This document shows positions 24,791 to 33,050 of a DNA stretch of 64,000 nt, piece after piece (position 1 is the stretch's first letter; the number at the start of each line of letters is the position of its first letter). The notes beneath the pieces were generated by a model. The model ran no database searches, was not told where the DNA came from, and worked only from the letters and a program-made list of their open reading frames with translations. Made by a program: the position numbers and the translations under genes. The stretch spans positions 25,047 to 89,046 of the forward strand of contig JAFGPW010000006.1 in the NCBI GenBank assembly GCA_016935985.1, in the 5' to 3' direction. The DNA is from Candidatus Woesearchaeota archaeon (GTDB lineage: Archaea; Nanobdellota; Nanobdellia; Woesearchaeales; JAFGPW01).

Positions 24791-25771
24791 TCACGCGGCA
24801 GTAAGGTACTGAGAAGCGACCTCGTCGACCGGCGCTTCCTTCCGCGTGAGCGCCGAGGAGAGGTACGGCCCGAGCCTTCGCCTGAGGTCGCCTGCGATGC
24901 GCCTGATGTCCACCTGGTCCTTCGGGACGCCGTTCGCGATCATATAGGTCGCCGCCTGACCGATGTAATGGTTCATCGCGAGCTCTGCCATCGCGAGGTT
25001 CTCACGCCTCCCCTCCTCCGAATCGGCGTCGATCGCCTCCTGGAGCAGGTAGCGCGCGTGCGTGTAGGCGTTGTCGATCTCGACGAGCGGCATCCGCTCA
25101 GGGCTCGAGCCGTTCATCAGGACGCTCTTCGGCTGGGCGTTGTGGATGAGCTCGTGCTCGAGCACGAACCAGACCGCGAGCTCCTCGGCGCGCGCCTGCG
25201 ATATGCCGTAGCGGCCCCGCATGCCTGCGGCGACATCCTCCACATACCTCTGGAAATAGGACGAGTTGATGAGCAGGTTCTTCCGCGCCGCCGAAGGGAT
25301 CGTCGCCGCGACCGCCTCCCCTTCGACGTCGTCGGCGATGTAGACCTCGATGTCTGAAGGAAGGCCCTTGCCGTATGCCCTGCGGACATGGCGATCGAGC
25401 CTGGAGTGCCGGTCCTGGGCCTGGAGACTGCGGTAGGCGGCCTTGATCTCCGCGTTCTGGTAGACCTTGGAGAGGATGTCGCTCTTCTGCCCCTCAGGGA
25501 TGGCGGCGTTCCTGACCCGCTCCTCGAGGCCCTCGGGCTGCGGCATGCCGGGCTCGGGAACGTCCTGCGATTCCTGTATCACGGAATAGGTCCCTGTCTT
25601 CGGGTTGGGCTGCGCGACCGACATCCAGTACGCGAGGCCCGGATGGTATGATCCGAAGGGCCCAGGATACGGTGCGGTCGCGAAGTGGCGCCGCGGTGCG
25701 GCCTCACTGACGGCCGCCGCGGCGATGATGCGCGAAAGAGATCGCGCTGCGCATGAATCGGAGAGGCCCAT
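24791..25771 (-). CDS. Putative zinc-dependent metallopeptidase-like protein with HELIH (326 aa)
   Basis: Residues of about 205-212 read EHELIHNA, an HExxH zinc motif in a helical context (LAVWFVLEHELIHN). That is the arrangement of zincin active sites. Possible third ligands downstream are the E/D residues in EIDNAYTHARYLL or in EAIDADSEEGRRENLAMAEL. The N-terminal 90 residues are low in structure (Pro/Gly-rich) and may be a weak signal or linker. A minus-strand TATA-like GTTTTTAAGG lies about 28 bp before the ATG, so a leaderless start is plausible. No family is assigned and the substrate is unknown. The C-terminus ends next to the convergent membrane-protein gene. Confidence 0.6.
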   Translation of the reverse strand: MGLSDSCAARSLSRIIAAAAVSEAAPRRHFATAPYPGPFGSYHPGLAYWMSVAQPNPKTGTYSVIQESQDVPEPGMPQPEGLEERVRNAAIPEGQKSDILSKVYQNAEIKAAYRSLQAQDRHSRLDRHVRRAYGKGLPSDIEVYIADDVEGEAVAATIPSAARKNLLINSSYFQRYVEDVAAGMRGRYGISQARAEELAVWFVLEHELIHNAQPKSVLMNGSSPERMPLVEIDNAYTHARYLLQEAIDADSEEGRRENLAMAELAMNHYIGQAATYMIANGVPKDQVDIRRIAGDLRRRLGPYLSSALTRKEAPVDEVASQYLTAA

Positions 25772-26482: not shown

Positions 26483-26712
26483 TTGATATCACCTGTGTTC
26501 ATGTATAGATAGGGTTATGTCCATTTCCCAGTGATTACTTCCATATAAACCTTTCGATTGATCGGCGTAGGGCTGCAGGAGAGCGCCGTCGATCCCCCGC
26601 ATCGGTTTTTCCGACGTGATGACGCCGAGATCGCCTTGCGATCCAAACACAACATTTAAATAGTTGGGTGGGTTCGCATCGGCATCTGATTTTCCATCCC
26701 TGAGGGGTTGTG

Positions 26713-28551
26713 ATGGCAAAGAAGCAGACCATAAAGAAGGACGACGATCCGGGGATAGTGGTGGAGAGAGACGAGCTCGCGAAGAAGCTGCCGCCCGACG
26801 CCCAGAAGAAGCTCGACCAGATCAAGGGGATCGTCGACAGGTTCCAGAAGAAGGCCATCGACAAGTTCGACAAGTACGTCTCAGGGATAGCTCTCCTTCC
26901 GCCCGACAAGAAGGAAGGGAGCGGCGAGCCGGACGTCGAGAAGATCAACCTGATGGTGCTCATCGACGACCAGGACTCCCAGCGGCTGCCGAAGGAGGAC
27001 CTGAAGGAGAAGATAACCGCGATCATCAACGGCTATGCCGCAGAGGTCGACAAAAGGCTCAGCCCCCAGATGCTGCTCCTCTCCGAGCTCTGGACGGCCT
27101 GCTTCGACGCGAAATACGACCTTCTCGACACCATCGCCATGGGCGCGCCCATCTACGACACCGGCATGCTCGCGGCGATCAGGATCGCGGAGGTCCACAA
27201 GAACATGGTCCTGAAGAAGTTCGAGAAGTATATCGTCTCCTACGTGCTCTCAGGATCGCTCATCCGCGGCGAGGCGACGCCGGACTCCGACATCGACGTC
27301 TTCATCGTGATCGACGACACCGACGTCAAGAAGATGACCCGCGCGGAGCTCAAGGACAAGCTGCGCGCGATCATCATCGGCATGGGGATGGAGGCGGGCG
27401 AGGTCACCGGCATCAAGAACAAGATCAACATCCAGGTCTACATACTCACCGACTTCTGGGACAGCCTCCGCGAGGCGAACCCGGTGATATTCACGCTGCT
27501 GCGCGACGGCGTCCCGTTCTTCGACCGCGGCATCTTCACGCCGTGGAAGCAGCTGCTCAAGATGGGCCGCATCAAGCCGAGCCAGGAGGCGATCGAGATG
27601 TTCATGTCCTCCGGCGAGCAGATGCTGAAGCGGGTCGAGTACAAGATCCGCGAGATCGGGATGGAGGACATCTACTACGCGATCCTCACCCCGTCGCAGG
27701 CCGCGCTCATGCTCTGGGGGATGGCGCCGCCGGCGCCGAAGGAGACCGCGAAGCTGATGCGCGAGATCTTCGTCAAGAAGGAGAGGATGTTCGAGGAGGA
27801 GCACATCAGGATACTCGAGAAGACCATCCAGGTGAGGAAGGACCTCGAGCACGGCACCAGGAAGGACCTGTCAGGGAAGGAGGTCGACGACCTGCTCAAG
27901 GACGCGCAGAAGTTCCTCAAGCGGATCGAGACGCTCTTCTCCGAGATCGAGGTCAAGCGCGAGAAGGAGTCGGTGACGCACATCTACGAGACCGCGATGA
28001 CGATCGTGCGCGACATCATGCGCATCGAGGGCATCGAGCGGCGAAAGGACCGCGACATCCTCGTCCTCTTCAGGGAGGAGCTCATCGAGGAGGGGAAGGT
28101 CCCTGACCGCTACCTGCGCATCCTCACCGACATCGTCGGCGCGAAGAAGGACTTCGACGCCGGCAGGCTCAGCAAGGCGACGATCGAGAAGGTCAAGAAG
28201 ACGAGCCAGGAGTTCATCAAGTTCATGATAGAGTACATGCAGCGCAAGCGCGGCCGCGAGATCGAGCGGTGCAAGATACGGGTCAGGCACGGCGAGCGTT
28301 TCGGCGAGATCCTCCTCCTGGACAAGACCGCGTTCATCATCCACGACATCGAGCATGAGGACAAGGAGATATCCAAGGCGCCGATCAGGAAGGACGGCTC
28401 GCTCGGCATGCCGACGCAGTCGAGCCTCGAGGAGCTCGAGAAGCACCTCGCCACGATCGAGATCCCGGAGAAGGCCTTCATCAAGGAGCCGATATTCGAG
28501 AACCTCAGGGAGCTCTTCGGGAAAGACGTCGAGGTGCTCATCAACTACTAG
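26713..28551 (+). CDS. Tandem nucleotidyltransferase-domain protein, first copy degenerate (612 aa)
   Basis: The start is the ATG directly after the GTG of the ORF track, with GAGGGG upstream. Residues of about 181-195 carry the polymerase-beta-type signature GSLIRGEATPDSDID, with metal-binding Asp at about 193 and 195. The usual third carboxylate strand reads INIQVYIL, so the third Asp may be replaced. Residues of about 52-160 repeat the same fold pattern (LMVLIDDQD...LKEKITAII...PIYDTGML versus VFIVIDDTD...LKDKLRAII...PFFDRGIF). In that copy the signature has decayed (EPDVEKIN) and the catalytic Asp positions are lost. The C-terminal half is a long helical/coiled region (about 340-510) plus a small terminal domain. 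An RNA- or small-molecule nucleotidyltransferase role is inferred. Confidence 0.72.
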   Translation: MAKKQTIKKDDDPGIVVERDELAKKLPPDAQKKLDQIKGIVDRFQKKAIDKFDKYVSGIALLPPDKKEGSGEPDVEKINLMVLIDDQDSQRLPKEDLKEKITAIINGYAAEVDKRLSPQMLLLSELWTACFDAKYDLLDTIAMGAPIYDTGMLAAIRIAEVHKNMVLKKFEKYIVSYVLSGSLIRGEATPDSDIDVFIVIDDTDVKKMTRAELKDKLRAIIIGMGMEAGEVTGIKNKINIQVYILTDFWDSLREANPVIFTLLRDGVPFFDRGIFTPWKQLLKMGRIKPSQEAIEMFMSSGEQMLKRVEYKIREIGMEDIYYAILTPSQAALMLWGMAPPAPKETAKLMREIFVKKERMFEEEHIRILEKTIQVRKDLEHGTRKDLSGKEVDDLLKDAQKFLKRIETLFSEIEVKREKESVTHIYETAMTIVRDIMRIEGIERRKDRDILVLFREELIEEGKVPDRYLRILTDIVGAKKDFDAGRLSKATIEKVKKTSQEFIKFMIEYMQRKRGREIERCKIRVRHGERFGEILLLDKTAFIIHDIEHEDKEISKAPIRKDGSLGMPTQSSLEELEKHLATIEIPEKAFIKEPIFENLRELFGKDVEVLINY

Positions 28552-29209: not shown

Positions 29210-29228
29210 GCTCGCCATGGGCTGGAGC

Positions 29229-29750
29229 ATGGAAGTAGAGAAGGGGACAAGCTTCATCATCAAGTACAAGGGCATCTTCGACATGGACCGCCTCTACATC
29301 GTGTGCCGGCAGTGGTTCGAGGACAAGCTCATGGAGTTCCATGAGGAGACCTACAAGTACAAGGTCCCCTCCCCGCTCGGCTCGGAATACGAGCTCGCGT
29401 GGAAGGCGTGGCGCAAGCTCGACGAGTACGCCAAGATGTGGATCAACGTCGCCTGGAAGCTCTGGGAAGCGACCGAGGTCGAGGTCATGGTCGACGGCAA
29501 GAGGAAGAAGATGGAGAAGGCGCGCGTGCGGATCGTCATCGACTGGAAGATCGACCTCGACTACCAGAACCGGTTCGACAGCCCGTTCGGAAGGCATATA
29601 AACAGGTTCTACCTCAAGTTCGTGTACAAGAAGAAGCTCGACAACCTGGTGACCGACATGGCGCATTACAAGGCCCTCGAGCTCCAGACGCTCATCAAGG
29701 AGGAGCTCGCGATGGCGACGAGAGGCAACGAGTTCGCGAGCGTGTGGTGA
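29229..29750 (+). CDS. Hypothetical protein, first of a tandem paralogous pair (173 aa)
   Basis: The ORF track starts at 29217. The ATG at 29229 is preferred from the TATA spacing and because MEVEKGTSF then aligns with the start of the downstream paralogue. It is soluble, rich in Trp, Tyr and Lys, with alternating strands and helices (DMDRLYIVCRQWFED, WKLWEATEVEVMVDGK, INRFYLKFVYKKKLDNL). It aligns throughout with the 166-aa product 6 bp downstream. The shared pattern is KGIFD/EGLLD, then RQWF/DFWF, EYAKMWINVAW/DYLKIVMRVQF, then NRFYLKF/HQLFDHYV. No named family is recognised. A heterodimer is a reasonable guess. Confidence 0.7.
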   Translation: MEVEKGTSFIIKYKGIFDMDRLYIVCRQWFEDKLMEFHEETYKYKVPSPLGSEYELAWKAWRKLDEYAKMWINVAWKLWEATEVEVMVDGKRKKMEKARVRIVIDWKIDLDYQNRFDSPFGRHINRFYLKFVYKKKLDNLVTDMAHYKALELQTLIKEELAMATRGNEFASVW

Positions 29751-29756
29751 GGTTGC

Positions 29757-30257
29757 ATGGTTGAACGCAAGATACTCATCGACCAGGCGAGACTCCAGTA
29801 CGAGGGCCTGCTCGACGTGAACGAGTTCTACAAGATGACAGACTTCTGGTTCCGCGAGAAGGGCTACGACAAGTGGGAGTGGAAGAACTACGAGCACGTC
29901 TACAAGTCGGGAAAGCAGGTCGAGCTCGAGATAACCCCCTGGAAGAAGGTGACCGACTACCTCAAGATCGTGATGCGCGTGCAGTTCCTGATGAAGAACA
30001 TCAAGGATGTGGTGGTGACGAAGGACGGCGTCAAGGTCAAGCTCCAGCAGGGAAGCGTCCTCGCCGTGTTCACGACGTACATGGAGTCCGACTACGAGCA
30101 CCGCTGGGAGGCGCAGCCGATATTCTACTTCCTGCACCAGCTCTTCGACCACTACGTCTTCAAGATCAACACCGAGCGCTACGAGGCGCAGGCGGTGAAG
30201 GAGACGAACGAGATCCGCGACCTGATGAAGAGCTACCTCAACCTGTTCAGGTTCTGA
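29757..30257 (+). CDS. Hypothetical protein, second of a tandem paralogous pair (166 aa)
   Basis: This is a paralogue of the preceding 173-aa protein with the same length and order of motifs (YEGLLDVNEFYKMTDFWF, WKKVTDYLKIVMRVQFLMKN, IFYFLHQLFDHYVFKINTERY). It begins 6 bp after the upstream stop with GTGAGGTTGC as a weak Shine-Dalgarno context, so the pair is one transcript. Both have an unusually high content of aromatic and basic residues. The fold may be a beta-barrel or alpha+beta ligand-binding domain, but nothing in the sequence identifies a ligand. Confidence 0.7.
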   Translation: MVERKILIDQARLQYEGLLDVNEFYKMTDFWFREKGYDKWEWKNYEHVYKSGKQVELEITPWKKVTDYLKIVMRVQFLMKNIKDVVVTKDGVKVKLQQGSVLAVFTTYMESDYEHRWEAQPIFYFLHQLFDHYVFKINTERYEAQAVKETNEIRDLMKSYLNLFRF

Positions 30258-30302
30258 AAGCCGCGCAAACCTTTAATACGACCCCTTTCTTCCCCCGACC
30301 GC

Positions 30303-31805
30303 ATGGTCCACGAGACGATCATCAGGGTGCTCATCGCGTTCGGGATACTCATCGTCGGGTTCGCGGCGTCGCGCATCGGCGAGGGGATGATCACGCGGCA
30401 GTACCGCAAGCGCCACGGCGTGCGGCTGCGGAAGGTCGCGCCTGCCAGGCTCTTCGCCTTCATCGTGAACGTCATCTCCCTCATCCTCGCGCTGTCGGCG
30501 CTGAACGTCACCGTCGGCGAGGATACGCTGGGCCGTGCGCTCGAGCTCCTGCCGACAGCCATCTCTGCCGTTCTCCTGCTCGTCCTCGTGATCGTCCTCG
30601 TCGGCTTCATCATGCACGCGGTGCGCCTCTTCGTCGAGAACTCGGGGCTGCTGCGGCTGATCGAGGAGTACGACCGGACAGCCCTCTACGACCTCGGCCT
30701 CATCGCCATCAGGATCATCCTCTATGCGCTCCTCGGCATCGTCGCGCTCAGCGTCGCGGGCGTCGAGACAGGATACGTGACGCGCATCATCTCCTTCATA
30801 GCGTATCCGATCCTCATCTTCCTGCTCGTCGCGCTCCTCGTCGCCTGCCAGGACGCGCTTCGGAACCTCGCGGCCGGCTACTACTTCAGGCTGCATTCCC
30901 TCTTCCGGGAGGGGGAGCTCGTGAAGGTGGACGGCTCCCATCTCCAGATCAGGAAGAGCCATCACCTGGGAATCGAGCTCGAGGCGACCGAGCGGAAGAA
31001 CCAGCGCGACCGCGAATTCCTGCCCTACGGCCGGATCCTGCGCGACGGCGCCGCCTACCGGTCGGTCCATGTCGAGCTCGACTCGCTCGAGAAGATCAAG
31101 GCGCAGTTCATCGCCCAGCACCCGAGCCACTGCGGCCCGGCGTCGGCAGCCATGATCCTGCGCATATTCGGGTTCACGGTATCGCAGGAGGAGATCGGCA
31201 GGAGGGCGGGGACGATCGTCCCCGGCAGGCGCGGGATCCCCGGCGGCACGACCCCGGCCCGGCTCATCAGTGTCGTCGACGAGCTCACCGCAGGCGAGGT
31301 GGCGGGGGTCTGGATCGACGCCGACCGGATCGTCAACCTCCGCGATGAGGCGAAACGCTGGCTGAAGGACGACGCGCTGCTCATCGTGGACTACAAGAAG
31401 TCGGCGCTCTTCCCGAAGGCGTTGAAGGCCCATTATTCCGTCTGCCTCGCGGTCGAGGGAGACGAGCTGCTCATCCTCGACCCGTCGCAGAAGGCCGGCG
31501 GCGTCTTCTACGCCGACTACCGGCGCGTGCAGGCGGGCATGGACACCTATTCTGAGCTCATCGGTGGCAGGCGCGGCTATATCGTCCTCGCGCTCCGCGG
31601 CTCTGCCGCGCACAAGCGCATCAGGGACGGAAAGGTCCACTACGACCAGTATGTGCTGGGCAGGGGCATCTCGAGAAGGCTCGTCCGGCTCTACGACCTC
31701 TCGCAGGTGAAGGACGTGCTGCCGGCGAGGCTTCAGTCATATCTCGAGCAGGTCGACGGCAGGCCGAAGGTGGCGCGGCTGTGGCGGCCGGGGCAGCGGC
31801 GATGA
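30303..31805 (+). CDS. MscS-like channel domain fused to a C39-like cysteine peptidase domain (500 aa)
   Basis: The N-terminal 200 residues contain four hydrophobic helices. The fourth leads into CQDALRNLAAGYYFRLHSLFREGELVKVDG, the TM3-to-beta-domain transition typical of small-conductance mechanosensitive channels (MscS). A short beta domain follows, to about residue 255. From about 268 the sequence changes to SHCGPASAAMILR, a papain-like C39 signature with Cys at about 277. HYSVCLAVEGDELLILDPS (His at about 378, Asp at about 394) supplies the remaining catalytic triad. C39 domains normally cleave double-Gly leader peptides on ABC transporters; here the partner is a channel domain. A TATA-like CTTTAATAC lies about 30 bp upstream of the ATG. 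The fusion is clear in one uninterrupted ORF; function is inference. Confidence 0.78.
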   Translation: MVHETIIRVLIAFGILIVGFAASRIGEGMITRQYRKRHGVRLRKVAPARLFAFIVNVISLILALSALNVTVGEDTLGRALELLPTAISAVLLLVLVIVLVGFIMHAVRLFVENSGLLRLIEEYDRTALYDLGLIAIRIILYALLGIVALSVAGVETGYVTRIISFIAYPILIFLLVALLVACQDALRNLAAGYYFRLHSLFREGELVKVDGSHLQIRKSHHLGIELEATERKNQRDREFLPYGRILRDGAAYRSVHVELDSLEKIKAQFIAQHPSHCGPASAAMILRIFGFTVSQEEIGRRAGTIVPGRRGIPGGTTPARLISVVDELTAGEVAGVWIDADRIVNLRDEAKRWLKDDALLIVDYKKSALFPKALKAHYSVCLAVEGDELLILDPSQKAGGVFYADYRRVQAGMDTYSELIGGRRGYIVLALRGSAAHKRIRDGKVHYDQYVLGRGISRRLVRLYDLSQVKDVLPARLQSYLEQVDGRPKVARLWRPGQRR

Positions 31806-32159: not shown

Positions 32160-33050
32160 ATGGCTGTCATCAACCGCATCATCGACCATGAGCATCACCA
32201 GCTCCTCTTCGCCACCTACCCCCACAAGGTGTCCTGGATCATCAACGTGATAGCGCCACAGGGCTATTTCGACAGCATCGGCATCAAGGTCCTGCATCCG
32301 ATCGTCGGATGGTTCGAGGAGATAGGCTATGACTGGACCTGCTTCAAGGCAGGCGGCTACTACTCAGATGAAACCATCAGCATATTCGATGAGTCGTCCG
32401 GGACGAGCGAGCGGCACGAGCTCTTCCATGCCATGGTGGACGACATGCTCGGATCCACGCAGTACACTGCTCTCGAGGAGGGGATGGCGCATGCCTGGCA
32501 GTTCCTCCACAGCGATCCAGACAGGGAAGCCGGCCCCTTGTGGGAACGCTCGCTCGAGATAGCGCAGTACCTGCGCACAGCCCTCGCCAGTGCCGCCGAT
32601 ACGTATGATCCCGGCTTCCAGATTCCCCTCGACTGGACCGAGCTCCTCCTCGAGGCGGACCAGTACGCCTATTTCCCCCTCTGCTACGCGGTCTCGCGAG
32701 AGTACCGCAACGAGTCTGAGCTCAAGGACATATTCATCTCCTCGCTCGGCAGGGCCGCCAGGTACAACAATCTGAGGAAAGGGATAGATCTCCTCGTCAT
32801 GAAGACGGACATCCCGCAATCGATGAAGCGGTTCTACCGCAAGCTTCAGTTCACCGGCGCGTATGACCTCTCGCCCACGAACCAGCTGCAGGAATACGAG
32901 ACGATCGACGGCGCGGTCTACCAGATAGGCTTCCCGAGCGACGGGCAGAAGCGGTTCAAGAAGATCACCGAGATGCTCTACAGCGGCGAGGCGATCGCGA
33001 GCATCGGTGAGACCGTATCACCGCCGGCATTAGAGTTGCTCGATAGGTGA
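32160..33050 (+). CDS. Putative zincin-type metallopeptidase (296 aa)
   Basis: GGGAGGTC immediately upstream is a strong Shine-Dalgarno and fixes the ATG. Residues of about 82-100 read ERHELFHAMVDDMLG, an HExxH zinc motif in a helix. ALEEGMAHAWQF follows 12-15 residues later, where EEG/EE-AH supplies a candidate third ligand as in gluzincin-like peptidases. No signal peptide is visible, so it acts in the cytoplasm unless exported otherwise. The C-terminal half is helical. It has the same HEL[IF]H type of motif as the 326-aa protein at 24791, but the flanks do not align well. Substrate unknown. Confidence 0.62.
   Translation: MAVINRIIDHEHHQLLFATYPHKVSWIINVIAPQGYFDSIGIKVLHPIVGWFEEIGYDWTCFKAGGYYSDETISIFDESSGTSERHELFHAMVDDMLGSTQYTALEEGMAHAWQFLHSDPDREAGPLWERSLEIAQYLRTALASAADTYDPGFQIPLDWTELLLEADQYAYFPLCYAVSREYRNESELKDIFISSLGRAARYNNLRKGIDLLVMKTDIPQSMKRFYRKLQFTGAYDLSPTNQLQEYETIDGAVYQIGFPSDGQKRFKKITEMLYSGEAIASIGETVSPPALELLDR

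Follow-up and report, generated by a model that had tools for sequence, protein, structure and literature searches.

A single forward-strand gene of the window (the whole 64,000-nucleotide stretch of a Candidatus Woesearchaeota contig that was analysed) encodes a protein of 500 amino acids in which five membrane helices and an MscS beta-domain are followed by a C39/phytochelatin-synthase-like domain and a conserved tail. The ORF runs without interruption from an ATG at 30303 to a stop codon that ends at 31805, contains every motif cited in the original prediction, and is present as one copy in the genome (G000; 1.4 Mb, 92% complete). The features of the gene are:

30272..30278, + strand: TATA-like element tttaata, centred ~28 nt 5' of the ATG
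30303..31805, + strand: whole fusion gene, 500 aa (five TM helices, MscS beta-domain, C39/PCS-like domain, conserved tail)
30306..30893, + strand: five predicted membrane helices (aa 2-38, 46-67, 77-114, 126-151, 157-197)
30897..31052, + strand: MscS beta-domain, aa 199-250
31086..31595, + strand: C39/phytochelatin-synthase-like papain-fold domain, aa 262-431
31116..31118, + strand: Gln272, oxyanion-hole residue
31131..31133, + strand: Cys277, predicted nucleophile
31431..31433, + strand: His377, predicted catalytic residue
31479..31481, + strand: Asp393, predicted catalytic residue
31596..31802, + strand: conserved C-terminal tail, aa 432-500

Given the position of the TATA-like element, the mRNA would be nearly leaderless. 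Directly upstream lie two similar-looking genes (29217-29750 and 29757-30257, + strand, 177 and 166 aa), neither with a Pfam match, and further upstream are a 613-aa protein that has a nucleotidyltransferase domain and matches HEPN weakly (26710-28551, + strand), followed by a CBS-pair protein, and a 326-aa protein with an EHELIH motif and no Pfam family (24791-25771, - strand). The gene 355 bp downstream (32160-33050, + strand, 296 aa) carries HELFHA...EEGMAH, which resembles the HExxH metallopeptidase motif; it has no Pfam match and no detectable similarity to MATCAP. In one clade of Woesearchaeota, large secreted CARDB-type proteins and exported proteins of ~480 aa recur just 3' of the fusion (L083, L087, L088, L089; L084, L086, L093, L095).

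The fusion of an MscS-like membrane half with a C39-type peptidase domain is confirmed as real. One continuous ORF had been proposed to join an MscS TM3-beta transition to a C39-type triad, and the motifs, a catalytic tetrad and both folds were all found. Under Pfam cut-offs the window protein alone falls short (Peptidase_C39_2, 21.5 bits versus 24 required; no MscS match), and a domain search on both halves over five members of the family detected MS_channel_2nd (5e-12), Peptidase_C39_2 (6e-8) and Phytochelatin (2e-7), with the MscS beta-domain (PF00924) present in three of the five (best 5.4e-12). Against solved structures, the A1 profile of the family matched MscS (~5e-7, columns 81-247) and Alr0975 (~1e-4, columns 264-422). 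An AlphaFold model from 55 sequences lacks neither fold (mean pLDDT 84.5; 85-97 in the C39 part, mostly 92-97 in its core), and Foldseek assigned its C-terminal half to Alr0975, PeiR, ComA and PCAT1 and the other half to MscS/YnaI. The probability that two genes were joined by an error of assembly or at read level is practically nil: the continuous ORF recurs in dozens of independent genomes (about 25 + 25, in two lineages, complete and long contigs among them), and the two halves of the gene share a GC3 of 0.92, by which this explanation is refuted.

By fold and residues, the C-terminal half is a clan CA (papain-like) cysteine peptidase of predicted activity. The label C39 stood as to papain fold and triad, but the domain is nearer to phytochelatin synthase and C39_2 than to the C39 domain of ABC exporters. 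Phytochelatin synthase ranked nearest by Foldseek, with the C39 peptidases of ComA and PCAT1 next. The best structural match was Alr0975, a glutathione-handling enzyme of the phytochelatin synthase family (C83, PF05023; E 7e-8, TM-score 0.68 over the target), which shares a sequence-profile match and the C/H/D triad with the fusion at ~20% identity, whereas the fusion is membrane-tethered; this likeness is one of fold and profile. The ABC-exporter peptidases (ComA, PCAT1; PF03412) and Peptidase_C39_2 (PF13529) have the papain-type fold and the order Q..C..H..D in common with the fusion ORF, which, unlike the exporters, includes no ABC transporter part. Conservation is highest in the C39 half (mean 0.69, versus 0.45-0.48 in the membrane and beta parts). 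C-terminal to the domain, the tail carries the motif K-[IV]-x-R-[LV]-W-[KR]-P; in the family alignment Arg439 is kept in all members and Trp494 in all except one truncated member.

The membrane half, judged by its beta-domain, is evidently MscS-derived. It has in common with the MscS family (PF00924; E. coli MscS, YnaI, MSL and the mini-MscS of DPANN archaea) a beta-domain after the last TM helix, the TM3-beta junction N..AG....[FL]..G and a C-in topology, but differs from it in having five TM helices, a longer and aromatic last helix, and a peptidase domain in the place of MS_channel_3rd. Thus the beta-domain and junction of the predicted MscS half were borne out. There are five helices, not three, and neither a canonical TM3 nor the cage was seen: the C-terminal alpha/beta cage (MS_channel_3rd) had no Pfam match in any of the five members. 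Because these two structural features of canonical MscS are missing, the name MscS channel is withheld. In a profile alignment the last helix, the equivalent of TM3, is 8 residues longer than TM3 of Helicobacter pylori MscS; across the family it is rich in aromatic residues (0.25, with Gly+Ala 0.17) and has no Gly/Ala zipper, and in the AlphaFold model it forms one continuous helix of 41 residues. Its form is closest to that of the standalone mini-MscS proteins of 180-200 aa common in the order of the window genome. Proteins of this kind (L006-L020, L044-L048, L058-L073) are mostly of 170-210 aa without a C-terminal cage domain, and more than half of the genomes of the order have profile matches to them. 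Loop charges (negative on the N side, +4.5 in loop 1-2, about neutral in loops 2-3 and 4-5, and +2.6 after TM5) indicate an N-out, C-in topology, so the peptidase domain, whose side of the membrane the original prediction had left to topology analysis, is predicted to face the cytoplasm. The membrane module is probably oligomeric.

A first scan of genome contigs with the single window protein as query gave no match, and a search of the first 60 relatives identified four full-length orthologues (34-39% identity). With the A1 profile, 25 of the 353 genomes in the window's own order yielded an orthologue (24 full-length, the window counted, and one contig-end fragment), and in the Nanohaloarchaea the fusion is present in 25 of 28 genomes, being absent from G533, G534 and G535; the recurrence in related genomes that was to be looked for is therefore established. 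On GTDB contigs, 39 loci were recovered from Woesearchaeota, Nanohaloarchaea, Aenigmatarchaeota and Nanoarchaeota. Searches of IMG/VR, INPHARED and PLSDB yielded no match that would indicate a viral, phage or plasmid origin, and no PADLOC model of anti-phage defence matched.

The gene order of the Nanohaloarchaea is S6e-eIF2gamma-FUS-ATPg1-ATPg2, FUS being the fusion, and the last three genes stay together in 23 of 23 loci, even in one (L101) with different outer genes. ATPg2, a RimK-like ATP-grasp protein (1e-36 range), is always encoded on the same strand, ~0.8 kb downstream of the fusion, and accompanies the fusion in all 25 genomes that have it, both genes missing from the remaining three of the 28 (Fisher 3e-4, uncorrected for phylogeny); in 6 of 8 genomes checked, this adjoining RimK is the only one at E 1e-5. 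ATPg1 has lost most of the residues conserved in ATPg2 (L193, L103, L107 and 18 other Nanohaloarchaea loci) and is likely a degenerate paralogue, a pseudo-ligase. Further partners are variable: GCS2, a YheCD-type ATP-grasp protein, AstE/AspA and MATCAP, as well as FGase and GSH-synthetase. The fusion of L109, whose long branch groups with the Nanohaloarchaea clade in the tree, adjoins FGase and a glutathione-synthetase-like ATP-grasp gene. In L103, L107, L110, L112 and others, eIF2gamma directly precedes the trio; CDC123, a eukaryotic ATP-grasp-like protein, binds eIF2gamma (PMC4431377), a parallel that is possibly a coincidence.

Ligase and peptidase are paired in known systems: tubulin ligase pairs with a MATCAP-type carboxypeptidase, and RimK is reported to pair with the retropepsin RimB (PMC11957791). 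As in RimK/RimB and other systems of an ATP-grasp ligase and a peptidase, a RimK-like gene is here in an operon with a peptidase, and the type of partner varies (MATCAP, AstE/AspA, FGase), but the fusion differs in that its peptidase is of the cysteine type and built into an MscS-like membrane protein, and in that its pair of ligases includes a degenerate one. The coupling holds in 25 of 25 Nanohaloarchaea genomes and is not seen in the window's own neighbourhood, where no ligase was identified by Pfam within ~6 kb upstream and 3 kb downstream of the fusion.

Most Woesearchaeota orthologues likewise have no conserved amidoligase neighbour. The only strong RimK of the window genome (C8:109202-110266) is encoded beside a retropepsin-like ORF that we read from its sequence as a putative RimB; of 338 genomes in the order, 225 have a RimK of this type, which is therefore not diagnostic, and the adjacency of a RimK to the fusion in L099 was dropped as evidence of a ligase link for the same reason. 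FGase adjoins the fusion in one genome (G324, locus L109) and is close by in another (G176, locus L105), and its co-occurrence with the fusion in the order is weak (6 of 25 fusion genomes versus 31 of 313 others, p 0.04). We infer that the ATP-grasp link of the Nanohaloarchaea carries over to the window lineage, which would use a ligase encoded elsewhere in the genome.

All 40 non-identical proteins of the first sets have the Gln/Cys/His/Asp tetrad without change, and in a wider alignment of 56 members, 46 retain Gln272, Cys277, His377 and Asp393 together, the window protein and all sampled Woesearchaeota among them. The ten others, all from Nanohaloarchaea, have lost Cys277, mostly together with His377 or Gln272, yet still keep E349, W353, D393, R439, the tail and the operon. 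The tree indicates at least two independent losses, one in the G540 lineage and one in the G541-G554 group, within which the order of losses is poorly resolved. A MATCAP-type metallopeptidase gene lies beside the operon in 7 of 10 decayed and 0 of 15 intact cases (Fisher 2.5e-4, ignoring phylogeny; these statistics and those of the operon draw on a single order and on roughly two independent events). Both loss groups have an adjoining MATCAP, the two being only 26% identical to each other. Two decayed genomes (G552 and G554) have no MATCAP match, and three Nanohaloarchaea with an intact C39 domain have a weak, distant homologue elsewhere in the genome. We read this pattern as an apparent swap of one peptidase for another within the same pathway, which would imply that catalysis by the C39 domain serves the ATP-grasp pathway.

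As a mechanism, the ATP-grasp ligase (RimK/GshB-type) would act on a small molecule or on the end of a protein and form a bond there of the amide or isopeptide kind; the MscS-derived module would hold a ring of C39/phytochelatin-synthase-type domains at the cytoplasmic face of the membrane; and these domains would hydrolyse or transfer the product, which may be a short peptide, an isopeptide or a C-terminal amino-acid tag. The C39 domain would thus supply the step of hydrolysis or transfer in a make-and-break cycle comparable to RimK/RimB or to tubulin tyrosine ligase and carboxypeptidase. That the fusion is a membrane-anchored peptidase or amidase which trims or removes a peptide or tag made by an ATP-grasp ligase is given about an even chance (roughly 0.5); the ligase-made peptide or tag is the presumed substrate, and a coupling of the peptidase to the state of the membrane is conjectured. 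A bolder version, in which a heptameric MscS-like scaffold with a peptidase ring serves throughout DPANN archaea as an eraser undoing, according to membrane state, the tagging of proteins or small peptides by ATP-grasp enzymes, a non-homologous metallopeptidase being swapped in upon active-site decay, is doubtful.

The interpretation in the original prediction, which offered tension-gated proteolysis or a device for peptide maturation and export, is partly supported, and the evidence points to a pathway with ATP-grasp ligases. If the protein were a working MscS-type channel, gating by hypo-osmotic shock would move or expose the C39 ring and a cytoplasmic substrate would be cleaved. The conserved beta-domain and TM3-beta junction and the predicted C-in topology agree with this, as do the TrkA/TrkH-like genes a few genes from the fusion in Nanohaloarchaea; in cultivated Nanohaloarchaea MscS genes, treated under osmotic homeostasis, are numbered four genes from Trk (PMC10266531), and these genes, annotated simply as MscS channels, appear from the fitting gene order to belong to the fusion family. 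Such gating is nonetheless rather improbable, as the pore helix is longer than in H. pylori MscS, aromatic-rich and without a Gly/Ala zipper, the peptidase decayed twice while the remainder of the protein was kept, and the neighbours are peptide ligases and peptidases, the osmotic genes being none but Trk, which may reflect backbone synteny.

The same decay favours a C39 domain that serves an MscS-like channel chiefly as a cap for binding or regulation, with catalysis secondary, for which the degenerate C39-like domain of HlyB is a parallel: since the domain persists without its catalytic residues, with fold residues, tail and operon retained in 10 of 56 members, it may have a partly structural role. 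As the principal function, a cap is unlikely when the full tetrad remains in 46 of 56 members and, where it is lost, a second peptidase usually adjoins the operon. In ABC exporters, C39 peptidases cut double-glycine leaders, and the fold matches to ComA and PCAT1 would suit a fusion whose C39 domain removes such leaders and whose MscS-like part exports the product. This is very improbable, because the fusion has no ATPase, its sequence profile is nearer to phytochelatin synthase/C39_2, and across the window and 39 orthologous loci no GG-leader was found among 6486 small ORFs (shuffled control, 0.35), against the double-glycine kind of maturation and export.

The ligase-linked peptidase thus remains the preferred reading of a new domain architecture that is made from known parts and conserved; a literature search found no paper on a peptidase built into an MscS-type protein. 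DPANN archaea are tiny and often host-dependent, and the fusion family is old and widespread among archaea of largely unknown biology. That the active site has decayed repeatedly, with another peptidase adjoining, provides a testable link from a membrane sensor-like module to peptide-ligase chemistry, and the operon with peptide-bond-forming enzymes in the salt-loving members suggests a membrane-bound eraser for their peptide product.
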